Source: Microcaldota archaeon | Lineage (GTDB): Archaea; Micrarchaeota; Micrarchaeia; Anstonellales; Bilamarchaeaceae | Reading direction: 5' to 3' | DNA length: 5,076 bases | NCBI GenBank assembly: GCA_013331535.1 | Contig: DUGF01000011.1 | Coordinates: 1-5,076 of the forward strand | Shown here: one piece after another, positions 1,290-4,886 of the stretch | Position numbering within the stretch: the first letter of the stretch is position 1 | How the letters are laid out: each line of letters opens with the position of its first letter | Made by a program: the position numbers and the translations under genes | Notes under the pieces: generated by a model | Database searches by the model: none | Seen by the model: the letters and a program-made list of their open reading frames with translations, nothing else | Told to the model about the DNA's origin: nothing

Positions 1290-1514
1290 ATGCCAGAAAA
1301 AAGACCATTTGATGTATTGAACAGTTCGTTGAACAATACGGTAGTTATCGGCCTTAAAGGCGGAGTAGAATTCCGCGGGGTAATGGCTGCTTATGATGTT
1401 CACATGAATATAGTGCTTGATAATGCAGAGCAGATAGTGAATGGCGAAGTAAAGCGCGGAATGGGAACCATCCTGTTGCGCGGAGACAGCGTCATTTATA
1501 TCTCACCGTCATAA
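1290..1514 (+). CDS. Sm-like archaeal protein (SmAP/LSm)
   Basis: The 74-residue protein has the usual length of a minimal archaeal Sm fold. Such proteins form heptameric or hexameric rings that bind U-rich RNA and take part in RNA metabolism. The Sm1 motif spans about residues 10-45: hydrophobic strands, GGVEFRG (24-30), then AYDVHMNIVLDNAE, where H38 and N40 occupy the usual uridine-binding loop. The Sm2 motif is LLRGDSVIYIS (62-72), with R64 and D66 in the second RNA-binding loop. A six-residue N-terminal stretch precedes the first helix. In many archaea the next gene encodes ribosomal protein L37e; here a tRNA-like region follows 26 bases after the stop. Promoter and ribosome site are both visible. 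Confidence 0.95.
   Translation: MPEKRPFDVLNSSLNNTVVIGLKGGVEFRGVMAAYDVHMNIVLDNAEQIVNGEVKRGMGTILLRGDSVIYISPS
1495..1502 (+). promoter_or_regulatory. Possible TATA box of the permuted tRNA-Ala gene
   Basis: TTTATATC lies inside the last codons of the Sm-like gene. Initiation about 25 bases downstream would fall near 1523-1528, just ahead of the leader that forms the outer side of the 59/60 splice motif. The position fits, but the match alone is weak; read-through from the Sm-like gene is the alternative. Confidence 0.35.
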
Positions 1515-1554
1515 TTTCCCTGTAGTCACGCTATCGCAATTCCCTCCGAGTCCA

Positions 1555-1571
1555 AAATTTTATTTTACTTA
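1555..1571 (+). other. Linker between the 3' and 5' halves of the permuted tRNA
   Basis: This AT-rich 17-nt spacer runs from just after A73 to just before G1. By analogy with characterised permuted tRNAs, tRNase Z would cut at its left end and RNase P at its right end after the halves are joined, releasing it. Its extent follows from the acceptor-stem pairing. Confidence 0.75.
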
Positions 1572-1586
1572 GGGCTCGTAGCTCAG

Positions 1587-1625
1587 AGCCCTTTTGACAT
1601 AGGGATTATTCAGGGCAAAAGTGCT
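1587..1625 (+). repeat. Hairpin repeat, copy 1 (D loop)
   Basis: AGCCCTTTTG (1587-1596) pairs with CAAAAGTGCT (1616-1625) at 9 of 10 positions around a 19-nt loop that starts ACATAG and ends AGGG. It resembles copies at 1693-1728 and 1797-1833 in both stem and loop, so common descent is likelier than chance folding. Confidence 0.65.
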
Positions 1626-1672
1626 TCACCCCCAAAGCCTTGAGTCTTTACTAGTCAATTGGGCGTGTATAA
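1589..1672 (+). other. D-loop insertion of tRNA-Ala, probable intron
   Basis: The D-stem strands are 91 nt apart. Keeping AGAG (1585-1588) and GCA (1673-1675) gives the 7-nt loop AGAGGCA, with G18 and G19 in place and the same length as the tRNA-Thr D loop. The remaining 84 nt would be intron. The sequence CAGAGC occurs on both sides (1584-1589 and 1674-1679). I found no canonical bulge-helix-bulge here, so the exact ends, and whether this is one intron or two, are unresolved. It contains the first of three related hairpins. Confidence 0.55.
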
Positions 1673-1691
1673 GCAGAGCGTCCGCTTGGCG

Positions 1692-1770
1692 GAGCCTTTT
1701 GACATAGTCTTTATAAGGGCAAAACGCTTCAGCGAAAAGCCCTGAAGAAGCAATATGTCTGGTTCCAGAC
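1692..1770 (+). other. 79-nt anticodon-loop intron of tRNA-Ala with canonical BHB
   Basis: The intron lies between G37 (1691) and U38 (1771). The splice motif is complete: anticodon stem TCCGC/GCGGA; central helix TTGG (1686-1689) with CCAG (1765-1768), including one G-U pair; 3-nt bulges CGG (1690-1692) and ACT (1769-1771), each cut after its second base; and inner helix AGCC (1693-1696) with GGTT (1761-1764). This is the substrate of the archaeal splicing endonuclease. Its interior carries the second hairpin repeat and a GTCTGG/CCAGAC inverted repeat that competes with the BHB pairing. Confidence 0.85.
1693..1728 (+). repeat. Hairpin repeat, copy 2 (anticodon intron)
   Basis: AGCCTTTTG (1693-1701) pairs with CAAAACGCT (1720-1728) at 8 of 9 positions; the 18-nt loop begins ACATAG and ends AAGGG. 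TTTTGACATAG is identical to copy 1. A small CGCT/AGCG hairpin (1725-1734) overlaps its right end. The leading AGCC also forms the inner helix of the splice motif. Confidence 0.65.
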
Positions 1771-1796
1771 TGCGGAAGGCCGAGGGTGCGAGCACA

Positions 1797-1833
1797 AGCC
1801 TTTTGGATTTCAGGTTTACAAGGGCAAAAGGCT
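1797..1833 (+). repeat. Hairpin repeat, copy 3 (trailer of permuted tRNA)
   Basis: AGCCTTTTG (1797-1805) pairs perfectly with CAAAAGGCT (1825-1833) around a 19-nt loop ending ACAAGGG. It starts 4 bases after the end of the tRNA 5' segment, so it occupies the trailer where a 59/60 intron would stand in an unpermuted gene. Confidence 0.65.
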
Positions 1834-1838
1834 GGTGT

Positions 1839-1925: not shown

Positions 1926-3209
1926 TTGCCGGTTTATGCCTTAAAACTTGCTGCTGATTTGAAAGCAGACAGGCAACGAAGCGATATCGCCAAAGAAATG
2001 TTTCAGAAGCATGGGCTTGGTCAAGATACTACCAAAGAATACTTAGCTACTTATTTTCCTCAGCGCGAATTAAAGGTGTTGCCTCCTGACAAAGTGAATG
2101 CTACGATTGATGAACAGTTATGGGGATACCGTGAATGCGTTAAAAATTCAGAAGACTGGCATGCCATCGTACAAAGAGCCGAAGAAACACGAAGAAAAAT
2201 TGGTAAAACAACTGTGCAACTAACTGCTGGAATGGCTCCAGAACAAAGAAGGCAAATCGCTATAGATCGAGACAGGGAAAGAGAGAAACAAGGAACTGCC
2301 ATACTGCAAATATCACTAAGGATGACTCATAAGCAAAGAAGTGACGTTGCAATCGAACGAGAACTGCAAAATGGTTCAGAGAAACGAAGCGATATTGCAA
2401 GAAAAAGAATGGCTCAAATGGCTCCAAAAAGAAGGAAAAGAATTGCCAAACGAGCCGAGAAAACCAGAATCAGACGTGGAAAGTCACTCACACAGTTTTG
2501 GCAAAGGCAAACCCATGAGGAAAGAAAAGAAATTTCAAGAAGAGTCAGGTCAATCGAAAAGGATGCCGAGAGAAGCAGGAGAAGCCGAGCCATGTGGAAA
2601 AGCAAAACCGCAGGGCAAAGAAAACTGATAGCACGAAAAAGAAATGCCGAATTAGAGAAAAAAGGGAAGGCAATATGGCAGATCTGGGAGAGGATGACCC
2701 CCGAACAAAGAAGTGAAACAATACAAAAAAGATGGGCTAAACTAAGCTCTGAACTAAGAATCGAAATTGCCAGAAGAGCATGGGAGTCCAGGAAGAAAGA
2801 GGTAGAAGAAAAGCTTGCGAGGATATCTATACTTGGTTTACCTGAGCTTAGGCTGTTGAACAGAGCGGAGGAAAGCATGTTTGTAACTCAGTATTTTGAG
2901 CACTTCTTTTTGAATCGCGCGTTTTCCCCGCCTATAAAAACGTTTTCCCTTCCGATCGAAATGTTTTGCAAACGGATGGATTATGATGATATCAAACAGG
3001 AGTGTATGCTGGCAATATTAGATGCATTAAGAAGGTGGGATCAGGAAGTCGACCTGAACAAACTTGTAAATAATTCTGTTGTCCATCATATGTATAGATA
3101 TTTTGCAGGAGAGCGAAAATATACGGCAATGTTATCACATCTCGAGCCAGACTCAGCCCAATCCCTACTCGAAAGAGACAAAACCGGAAGAACCCCAAGA
3201 AAAAGATAG
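1926..3209 (+). CDS. Basic repeat protein with sigma-70 region 2-like C-terminus
   Basis: The 427-residue product is unrecognised as a whole. Residues 85-290 are a highly charged helical array of roughly 30-residue units, with a GK-(A/S)-x-x-Q-x-W-x-R stretch followed by MTPEQR-S-(E/D)-IA-x-KR, plus shorter half units; residues 15-25 (DRQRSDIAKEM) look like an outlying copy. Residues 308-404 resemble sigma-70 region 2: EESMFVTQYFEHFF as 2.1, MDYDDIKQECMLAILDALRR then WD as 2.2, and an NKLVNNSVVHHMYRYFAGER segment as 2.3. No region 4 is visible, so it cannot be a complete sigma factor. DNA or RNA binding is inferred. The start is unsure: TTG at 1926 lacks a ribosome site, the frame is open back to 1908, and no in-frame ATG precedes residue 25. 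It may be acquired from a mobile element. Confidence 0.75.
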   Translation: MPVYALKLAADLKADRQRSDIAKEMFQKHGLGQDTTKEYLATYFPQRELKVLPPDKVNATIDEQLWGYRECVKNSEDWHAIVQRAEETRRKIGKTTVQLTAGMAPEQRRQIAIDRDREREKQGTAILQISLRMTHKQRSDVAIERELQNGSEKRSDIARKRMAQMAPKRRKRIAKRAEKTRIRRGKSLTQFWQRQTHEERKEISRRVRSIEKDAERSRRSRAMWKSKTAGQRKLIARKRNAELEKKGKAIWQIWERMTPEQRSETIQKRWAKLSSELRIEIARRAWESRKKEVEEKLARISILGLPELRLLNRAEESMFVTQYFEHFFLNRAFSPPIKTFSLPIEMFCKRMDYDDIKQECMLAILDALRRWDQEVDLNKLVNNSVVHHMYRYFAGERKYTAMLSHLEPDSAQSLLERDKTGRTPRKR

Positions 3210-3740: not shown

Positions 3741-4886
3741 CTAAAACACCCCGAACAGTTTTCCATCCTCTTTTTTGAATTCCTCAAGCAGTTCCCTCTG
3801 TTTTCTGGATAGGTTTTTGGGAATCACAACATTTATCTTGACCAGCTCGTCGCCCCTTTCGCTATTTCTTCCTCTCTCTATGTTCGGAAGCCCTTCACCT
3901 TTCATTCTGAAGACCGTCTCTGGCTGGGTTCCTGCAGGAATCTTTAGTTCCGCCTTCCCAGATCCTGAAATCGTTGGCACATCTATTTTAGTCCCAAGAA
4001 TAGCATCAATAAAATTTATTTTTGTTTCAAAATAAACATCTTCCCCGTCACGTTTCAATTGCGCGTGCGGCTTTACATTAATATAAACGTATAAATCCCC
4101 GGAACCATCCTTTCCATAGCGGCCCATCCCGCGAACGCGCAGGTTCATTCCATCCTCCACGCCTGCGGGTATTGTTACTTCAAGTTTCTCATGTTTTTCT
4201 ATTGTTCCGCGGCCATTGCATCGCGAGCAGAATTGTTTTATGCTTCGTCCTTCTCCATAGCATGAATTGCACGCAGCGGCACTCCTTACAATCATAGGGC
4301 CTAATCTTCTGTTCACGTAAACCATTCCGCTTCCTTTGCATTTATCACATGTTGTAGAATTAGTTCCTGGTTCTGCCCTGCTTCCTTTGCATCTGTCGCA
4401 TGCATTGTTATGTGAAACTTCAATTTCACGGGTTGTTCCTTTTGCAACCTCTTCAAGCGTAATCTGTATTTCTGTTTGAAGGTTTTCCCCAACTTCTCTT
4501 CTTTTTCTGCTTCTTCCCTGCCCTCCAAAATCAAAAAACATCGAAGAAAACGGGTCATTTCCTCCACGTCCAAATCCTCCTCCAAATCCGAAATTCCTTA
4601 GAACATCTGCAAACTCCTCAAAATTAGCGTTTCTGAAGATATCCTCCTGAGAATATCTCTGGTCAAATCCCGCATGGCCGTACTGATCGTACGCACTGCG
4701 TTTTTCCGAATCGCTGAGTACGGCATATGCCTCGCTTATTTCCTTGAATCTGGCTTCTGCATCCTTGTTTTTATTCCTGTCTGGATGAAATTCCAGCGCA
4801 AGCTTTCTATATGCTTTTTTGATCTCATCGGCGCTTGCGCTCTTCGCAACTCCGAGAATTTCATAATAATCGCGTTTAGAAGTCAT
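3741..4886 (-). CDS. dnaJ: Chaperone protein DnaJ (type I Hsp40)
   Basis: The 381-residue co-chaperone stimulates DnaK (Hsp70) ATPase activity and delivers unfolded clients in the cytoplasm. The J domain covers about residues 5-70, with H34-P35-D36 and the YDQYGHAGF exit. A Gly/Phe-rich linker follows (99-125). The zinc domain holds four cysteine pairs: C163/C166, C180/C183, C206/C209 and C220/C223. The first reads CDRCKGSR, losing the last glycine of the usual CxxCxGxG. The substrate-binding beta domains (about 135-160 and 230-355) include IPAGVEDGMNLRVRGMG and IPAGTQPETVFRMKGEGLP. Length is typical. An AAGG lies 7 bases before the ATG. It is 24 bases after a partial J-domain gene and immediately before the HEPN gene. 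No dnaK or grpE is in view. Confidence 0.97.
   Translation of the reverse strand: MTSKRDYYEILGVAKSASADEIKKAYRKLALEFHPDRNKNKDAEARFKEISEAYAVLSDSEKRSAYDQYGHAGFDQRYSQEDIFRNANFEEFADVLRNFGFGGGFGRGGNDPFSSMFFDFGGQGRSRKRREVGENLQTEIQITLEEVAKGTTREIEVSHNNACDRCKGSRAEPGTNSTTCDKCKGSGMVYVNRRLGPMIVRSAAACNSCYGEGRSIKQFCSRCNGRGTIEKHEKLEVTIPAGVEDGMNLRVRGMGRYGKDGSGDLYVYINVKPHAQLKRDGEDVYFETKINFIDAILGTKIDVPTISGSGKAELKIPAGTQPETVFRMKGEGLPNIERGRNSERGDELVKINVVIPKNLSRKQRELLEEFKKEDGKLFGVF
3747..3752 (-). promoter_or_regulatory. Ribosome binding site inside dnaJ for the HEPN gene
   Basis: GGGGTG on the minus strand, within the last dnaJ codons, lies 6 bases before the ATG at 3740. It supports that start and coupling to dnaJ translation. 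Confidence 0.65.

Follow-up and report, generated by a model that had tools for sequence, protein, structure and literature searches.

A probable circularly permuted tRNA-Ala(GGC) gene next to an LSm protein gene in an archaeal contig

The 5,076 nucleotides analysed here (the whole stretch, called the window) contain a tRNA-Ala(GGC) gene in permuted order, in such a way that its 3' part, from T60 to A73 (1541-1554), is placed 17 nt 5' of the part running from G1 to G59 (1572-1792), both on the plus strand. The locus is a real permuted tRNA gene, probably with a working tRNA as its product. From its sequence, we consider it very likely that it is a functional circularly permuted gene, whose transcript would be cut at a bulge-helix-bulge (BHB) splice motif, likely closed into a circle by joining position 59 to position 60, and then likely linearised into a mature tRNA by RNase P and tRNase Z. 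The parts of the locus are the following:

1290..1514, plus strand: LSm (Sm-like archaeal) protein gene (Pfam LSM, 1.4e-20)
1515..1540, plus strand: leader, read from the sequence; CGCA (1535-1538) provides one side of the central helix of the BHB, and A1539 and T1540 belong to a bulge
1535..1793, plus strand: BHB at the 59/60 join, with the T-stem (5 bp) as outer helix, a central helix of 4 bp and two 3-nt bulges
1541..1554, plus strand: 3' exon without encoded CCA, with T60 (1541), T-stem 3' strand CCCTC (1542-1546), acceptor 3' strand CGAGTCC (1547-1553) and A73 (1554), pairing with 1782-1786 and 1572-1578
1555..1571, plus strand: A+T-rich linker of 17 nt between A73 and G1, read from the sequence
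1572..1586, plus strand: 5' exon a, G1 to G15 (acceptor 5' strand GGGCTCG at 1572-1578, T8 A9, D-stem 5' strand, A14 G15)
1587..1666, plus strand: predicted D-loop intron, 80 nt, with a GCTC/GGGC central helix recognised by eye, as in relative L014
1667..1691, plus strand: 5' exon b, with the remaining D-arm, anticodon stem 5' strand, anticodon GGC (1688-1690) and G37
1692..1770, plus strand: predicted 37/38 intron, 79 nt, with its pairs checked and its bulges read from the sequence
1771..1792, plus strand: 5' exon c, with T38, anticodon stem 3' strand, variable loop AGGCC, T-stem 5' strand GAGGG (1782-1786) and T54 to G59 (TGCGAG, 1787-1792)
1793..1837, plus strand: trailer hairpin CACAAGCCTTTTG/CAAAAGGCTGGTG (GCCTTTT...AAAAGGC), found by repeat search

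The acceptor stem (7 pairs) and the T-stem (5 pairs) are both formed across the separated pieces, and all pairs of the acceptor, T- and anticodon stems and of the 4-bp splice helix are intact. The alanine features G3.U70 (1574/1551), A73 and anticodon GGC are also present. An initial annotation of this DNA had proposed such an arrangement, with the 3' strand and A73 17 nt upstream, the seven and five pairs, G3.U70, and CGCA and TGCG forming a helix with 3-nt bulges, and all these elements were recovered at the same positions. The 3' boundary of the D-loop intron is uncertain by about 4 nt: the strict motif leaves a D-loop of 11 nt, versus 7 nt in intron-free relatives, and the intron would end at 1670 if the D-loop had 7 nt. 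With either length, ARAGORN identified the joined exons as tRNA-Ala(ggc), and it detected no tRNA in the whole window, in 1515-1925 (introns allowed or not), or in the 5' part by itself after splicing. The only match of an Rfam search of the window up to an E-value of 5 was to another tRNA, which contains an intron and lies on the minus strand at 199-82. No second copy of the 3' part with up to 2 mismatches was found in the window, the closest being one 3-mismatch match at 4559-4572, 2.8 kb downstream. An ordinary cis-spliced 59/60 (T-loop) intron was rejected, because the sole 3' exon within 2 mismatches lies upstream and none follows 1792. Inspection by eye for a promoter 5' of 1541 pointed to TTTATATC (around 1495-1502), which overlaps LSm codons and was not counted as evidence.

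The pairing was evaluated on the plus strand, with G.U allowed, against 3000 versions of the 5-kb window obtained by dinucleotide shuffling. The 12 acceptor and T-stem pairs appeared 983 times, 219 times together with A73, and 6 times when the 4-bp helix was also included, so all elements together correspond to 0.002 per window, or by scaling to around 5e-5 within 120 nt. In the real window a segment with all 12 pairs occurs once on the plus strand, and at least 11 of the 12 are found at 7 places on this strand and at 12 on the minus strand. As 12 pairs are common in the shuffles and near-matches are frequent in the window, pairing alone is weak evidence.

The strongest sequence evidence for a permuted gene is the comparison with relatives that carry the same tRNA in linear order. 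Their 3' exon, TCCCCCCGAGTCCA (for example in L004), is found in the window with up to 1 mismatch only at 1541-1554, and in 0 of 200 shuffles. Unlike pairing alone, this match is not weak evidence. The 3' exon of the window is identical to that of the linear relatives at 13 of its 14 bases, the sole change being T64 for C64, and this change is matched in the downstream piece by A50 for G50. Pair 50-64 is therefore A-T in the window, and in the 14 distinct intron-free relatives it is G-C (12) or C-G (2). As read from these sequences, the change is two-sided and preserves the pair, that is, it is compensated between the two separated pieces. Exon a of the 5' part shows no differences from that of L004.

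When the joined tRNA (with the short D-loop) was compared with 22 intron-free relatives (14 distinct), 50 to 66 identities were found over 72 to 76 columns. The triplet T54-G55-C56 is present in 16 of these 22 relatives, always with A18-G19, and the other 6 have TTC with G18-G19. The window tRNA shows the combination of AG with TGC. Its G55 is odd for a tRNA but normal in the nearest relatives. In tRNA, G18 contacts pseudouridine 55, and A18/G55 is an unusual replacement. Positions 18 and 55 covary among the 22 loci (L004 and L022 are examples), with A18-G55 in 16 and G18-T55 in 6. This covariation shows a normal member of the clade and not the join, because both sites lie within the 5' part, and support for the join is taken from pair 50-64 instead.

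The LSm protein of the window shows 97% identity to an NCBI Candidatus Micrarchaeota protein. An LSm search over 300 genomes of the phylum found it in 264, the best among the matches listed having 86% identity, and 54 loci came from scanning GTDB contigs with an alignment of LSm. The 700 nt 3' of LSm were classified in 55 distinct other loci (one genome, G032, gives two, and one record bears the name Aenigmatarchaeota). Of the 55, 43 have a linear tRNA-Ala in this interval, on the same strand in 41 cases and on the opposite strand in 2. The permuted order was found in none of the 55, the window alone being permuted. The strict pattern gave no match in the remaining 12, among which L002 and L019 have linear copies by eye and the contig of L007 ends 21 nt after LSm. 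The initial annotation had tied its proposal to the conservation of both halves in relatives; they are kept there, as a linear gene, and the permuted order occurs in no relative seen. Synteny was not detected past LSm, as the other four window proteins gave 0 tblastn matches (E 1e-5) in the 54 loci.

A T-loop insertion that can be read as a 59/60 intron is present in 12 of the 43 linear genes. In this reading the script fixes the intron position at 59/60, and position 60 is T in 12 of 12. In L003, L018 and L049 the central splice helix then consists of 4 pairs, versus 1 to 3 in the remaining nine insertions. Read in this way, L003 and L018 have in their insertions the TGCG/CGCA helix of the window (4 of 4 pairs) and also the arrangement of its leader, CGCA plus 2 nt plus T60, and the starts of these insertions resemble the trailer hairpin, with which they may be homologous. 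Five linear LSm-adjacent tRNA-Ala(GGC) genes (L001, L003, L008, L017 and L018) coincide with the window gene in place, anticodon and T-loop TGCGA and have an insertion readable as a 59/60 intron, but their parts are in normal order.

The junction at 59/60 that had been proposed from the start is thus supported by the pairing, by the BHB, by the recognition of the tRNA by ARAGORN in joined exons only, and by the linear orthologues at the same LSm-adjacent place. The central helix of this BHB is formed by CGCA (1535-1538) and TGCG (1787-1790), and its bulges are AT/T (1539-1541) and AG/C (1791-1793), the stroke marking the exon boundary. Its intron-side helix is missing, so the motif is of the relaxed, hBH-like kind, as had been suspected. 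The BHB of the 37/38 intron has the central helix TTGG/CCAG, with one G.U, and the bulges CG/G and AC/T. Unconstrained folding of the RNA 1515-1860 formed the acceptor stem, the T-stem and the 59/60 BHB with probabilities of 0.94-0.98, the D-stem with 0.23 and the central helix of the 37/38 BHB with 0 in the free ensemble. Its energy was -116.7 kcal/mol versus -100.05 +/- 5.83 for 100 shuffles (z -2.86), with 1 of the 100 as stable. When both predicted introns were removed, the acceptor, T-stem and BHB helices reached 0.95-1.0. The fold depends on the ends chosen, with T-stem and BHB probabilities of 0.06 for 1490-1925, 0.3 for 1400-2000 and 0.05 for 1515-1800.

The layout suggests how the gene could be processed. 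A single transcript would span both halves, and an EndA of the ARMAN-2 type (epsilon2), such as the one found in a relative, would cut the 59/60 BHB and both introns. RtcB would then ligate position 59 to 60, giving a circle. By analogy with known permuted tRNAs, tRNase Z and RNase P would excise the linker 1555-1571 from it to yield a linear tRNA, and CCA would be added post-transcriptionally. In PMC4033280 the pathway of permuted tRNAs is described as BHB formation from the precursor ends, splicing to a circle and possibly the action of RNase P and tRNase Z, and the ARMAN epsilon2 endonuclease is reported there to cut the relaxed motifs hBH and BHL. An ARMAN-specific loop is essential in assays, and its residues Y160 and K161 contact RNA, according to PMC12397907. 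All 5 relatives searched have genes for PF01974 proteins and for RtcB, the RtcB of G002 being partial. In G003, the one relative compared, EndA aligned with PDB 4fz2 with an E-value of 8.6e-131 over residues 6-394 of 394, which makes it of the ARMAN-2 type, and it retains Y160-K161, as counted on the printed alignment. A relative carries a splicing endonuclease of a type reported as broad in specificity.

It is improbable that the locus is a decayed remnant, in other words, a duplicated, truncated and non-functional tRNA-Ala locus in a genome with a normal linear copy elsewhere. Among 47 loci scanned for tandem copies of tRNA pieces beside LSm, two do have them, partial and exact: L019 with one of 18 nt, and L025 with one of 113 nt and another of 18 nt. 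L009 shows a partial tandem tRNA-Ala copy by eye. Decay is, however, at odds with the complete pairing of the stems and the splice helix and with the compensated change at 50-64 between both pieces. A normal copy elsewhere also fits poorly with the relatives, as 22 of 300 genomes, searched with a method that would miss interrupted copies, contain the uninterrupted tRNA-Ala body and 21 of these have it just once.

Joining in trans of two separately transcribed pieces, that is, a split tRNA, was regarded as very unlikely. The same 59/60 BHB would serve it, and Aeropyrum pernix has split tRNA genes whose halves are adjacent (PMC3218864). Nevertheless, a 3' half followed by a 5' half on one strand is the layout of a permuted gene, and the 17 nt from A73 to G1 were judged insufficient to hold another promoter and leader. 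Least credible of all is misplacement of the 3' piece by a chimeric or collapsed metagenome assembly, given that a collapsed tandem array would join LSm to the 5' half and not to an apparent intron end, and that the breakpoints coincide with a splice motif with a 4-bp helix. In favour of this doubt, the protein of the ORF at 1926-3209 is listed on one contig, the longest having 5503 bases; the LSm protein is listed on 10.

Assuming a permuted gene, comparison with its relatives points with unusual clarity to a possible origin. The ancestral gene next to LSm would have been linear and have carried a 59/60 intron, as 12 relatives still seem to. This gene would have been duplicated in tandem, after which the first copy would have lost its 5' part and the second its 3' part. 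The leader and the trailer would then be the two ends of the old intron, the leader (1515..1540) being perhaps its 3' end, and the linker would be the old spacer. The window gene and linear relatives agree in their location, in where the T-loop insertion lies and in the splice helix, and the tandem tRNA pieces of L019 and L025 are found at this location too. Judging from these sequences, the gene probably derives from duplication of one with a 59/60 intron and later loss of the outer parts, the duplication step being deduced. The same model, in which an intron-bearing tRNA gene is duplicated in tandem and its outer exons are then lost, is put forward in a review (PMC3978253). We favour, with some reserve, the combined view that this is the first archaeal permuted tRNA gene outside Crenarchaeota and that it arose by duplication and loss from a gene with a 59/60 intron. 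If true, this would give direct comparative support to the origin of permuted tRNAs by duplication and loss, against an ancestral state. With linear genes at 43 of the 55 loci, 12 of them with an insertion at the apparent point of permutation, a late origin from intron-bearing genes and an ancestral one, between which opinion is divided, become testable within one clade.

The permuted genes of Thermofilum pendens are the sole genes for their anticodons. There are two of them, joined at 59/60, as the initial annotation had stated and as PMC3218864 confirms. According to the same paper they are, like the window gene, archaeal, with the 3' half upstream on one strand, a 59/60 BHB and a 37/38 intron. 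Their linkers are short (7 and 1 nt, versus 17 nt in the window), and they differ from the window gene in belonging to a crenarchaeon, in encoding CCA, in having one intron listed and in being of other isotypes; moreover, their flanks looked laterally acquired, whereas the window gene is at the usual LSm-adjacent place. The type IV tRNA-Ala(UGC) of Cyanidioschyzon merolae also shares with the window gene the 59/60 junction, the alanine isotype and the absence of encoded CCA (PMC3218864 and PMC3978253), and the permuted tRNAs of this alga pass via a circular intermediate (PMC4033280). C. merolae is, in contrast, a eukaryote, with another anticodon and another splicing enzyme, and common descent of the permutation is not implied. 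As in type IV (59/60) genes, the window has the parts in permuted order with a short linker, a full tRNA of one isotype when joined, and a BHB, in this case relaxed. In the literature searched, partly available as text and with subscription papers and preprints outside it, no archaeal permuted tRNA was found beyond the two T. pendens genes, nor any for Micrarchaeota, and for DPANN the word "permuted" appeared in one reference list only. The gene would be one of very few of this known kind in archaea and would extend it to a distant lineage, probably the Micrarchaeota (DPANN).

Other permuted genes were searched for in 300 genomes of the phylum with the pattern GTCCA-N(1-31)-GGGCNYRTAGCTCA, which covers Ala-like genes only. 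It gave 8 matches, none of them permuted by eye: in G003 and G026 a GTCCA happens to precede the linear gene beside LSm, another three matches look coincidental, and the last three mark where other tRNA genes begin. ARAGORN run on six of the eight loci detected two tRNAs, both in L092 and away from the pattern match. Viral contigs gave 0 matches to the permuted pattern and no LSm relative, and plasmid records gave no match.

Some further observations concern the tRNA genes of this group. In L025, a 113-nt repeat starting 274 nt after LSm contains the tRNA-Ala 3' part and its flank, with its exact second copy 109 nt further on, and an additional piece resembling a 5' half lies upstream. The Rfam tRNA model at an E-value of 0.001 detected 10, 5, 3 and 18 places in genomes G001, G003, G004 and G036, low counts which suggest that most of their tRNA genes are heavily interrupted. 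In the window, the D-loop intron and the 37/38 intron have a 20-nt block in common (85%; 1590-1609 and 1695-1714), and the 37/38 intron and the trailer one of 19 nt (89%; 1710-1728 and 1815-1833), suggesting that introns were copied inside one gene if the blocks are homologous. The ORF at 1926-3209 (plus strand) encodes 427 aa with repeated basic motifs; it gave no convincing Pfam or PHROGs match, and its one relative besides itself is a 281-aa protein of Candidatus Micrarchaeota (66% over 58%). The minus-strand tRNA at 82-199 (Rfam, 54.3 bits) has by eye the anticodon GGT (Thr), and its intron contains CCCTTTTTGCGCGGCAAAAAGCG, a hairpin that resembles those of the tRNA-Ala introns.
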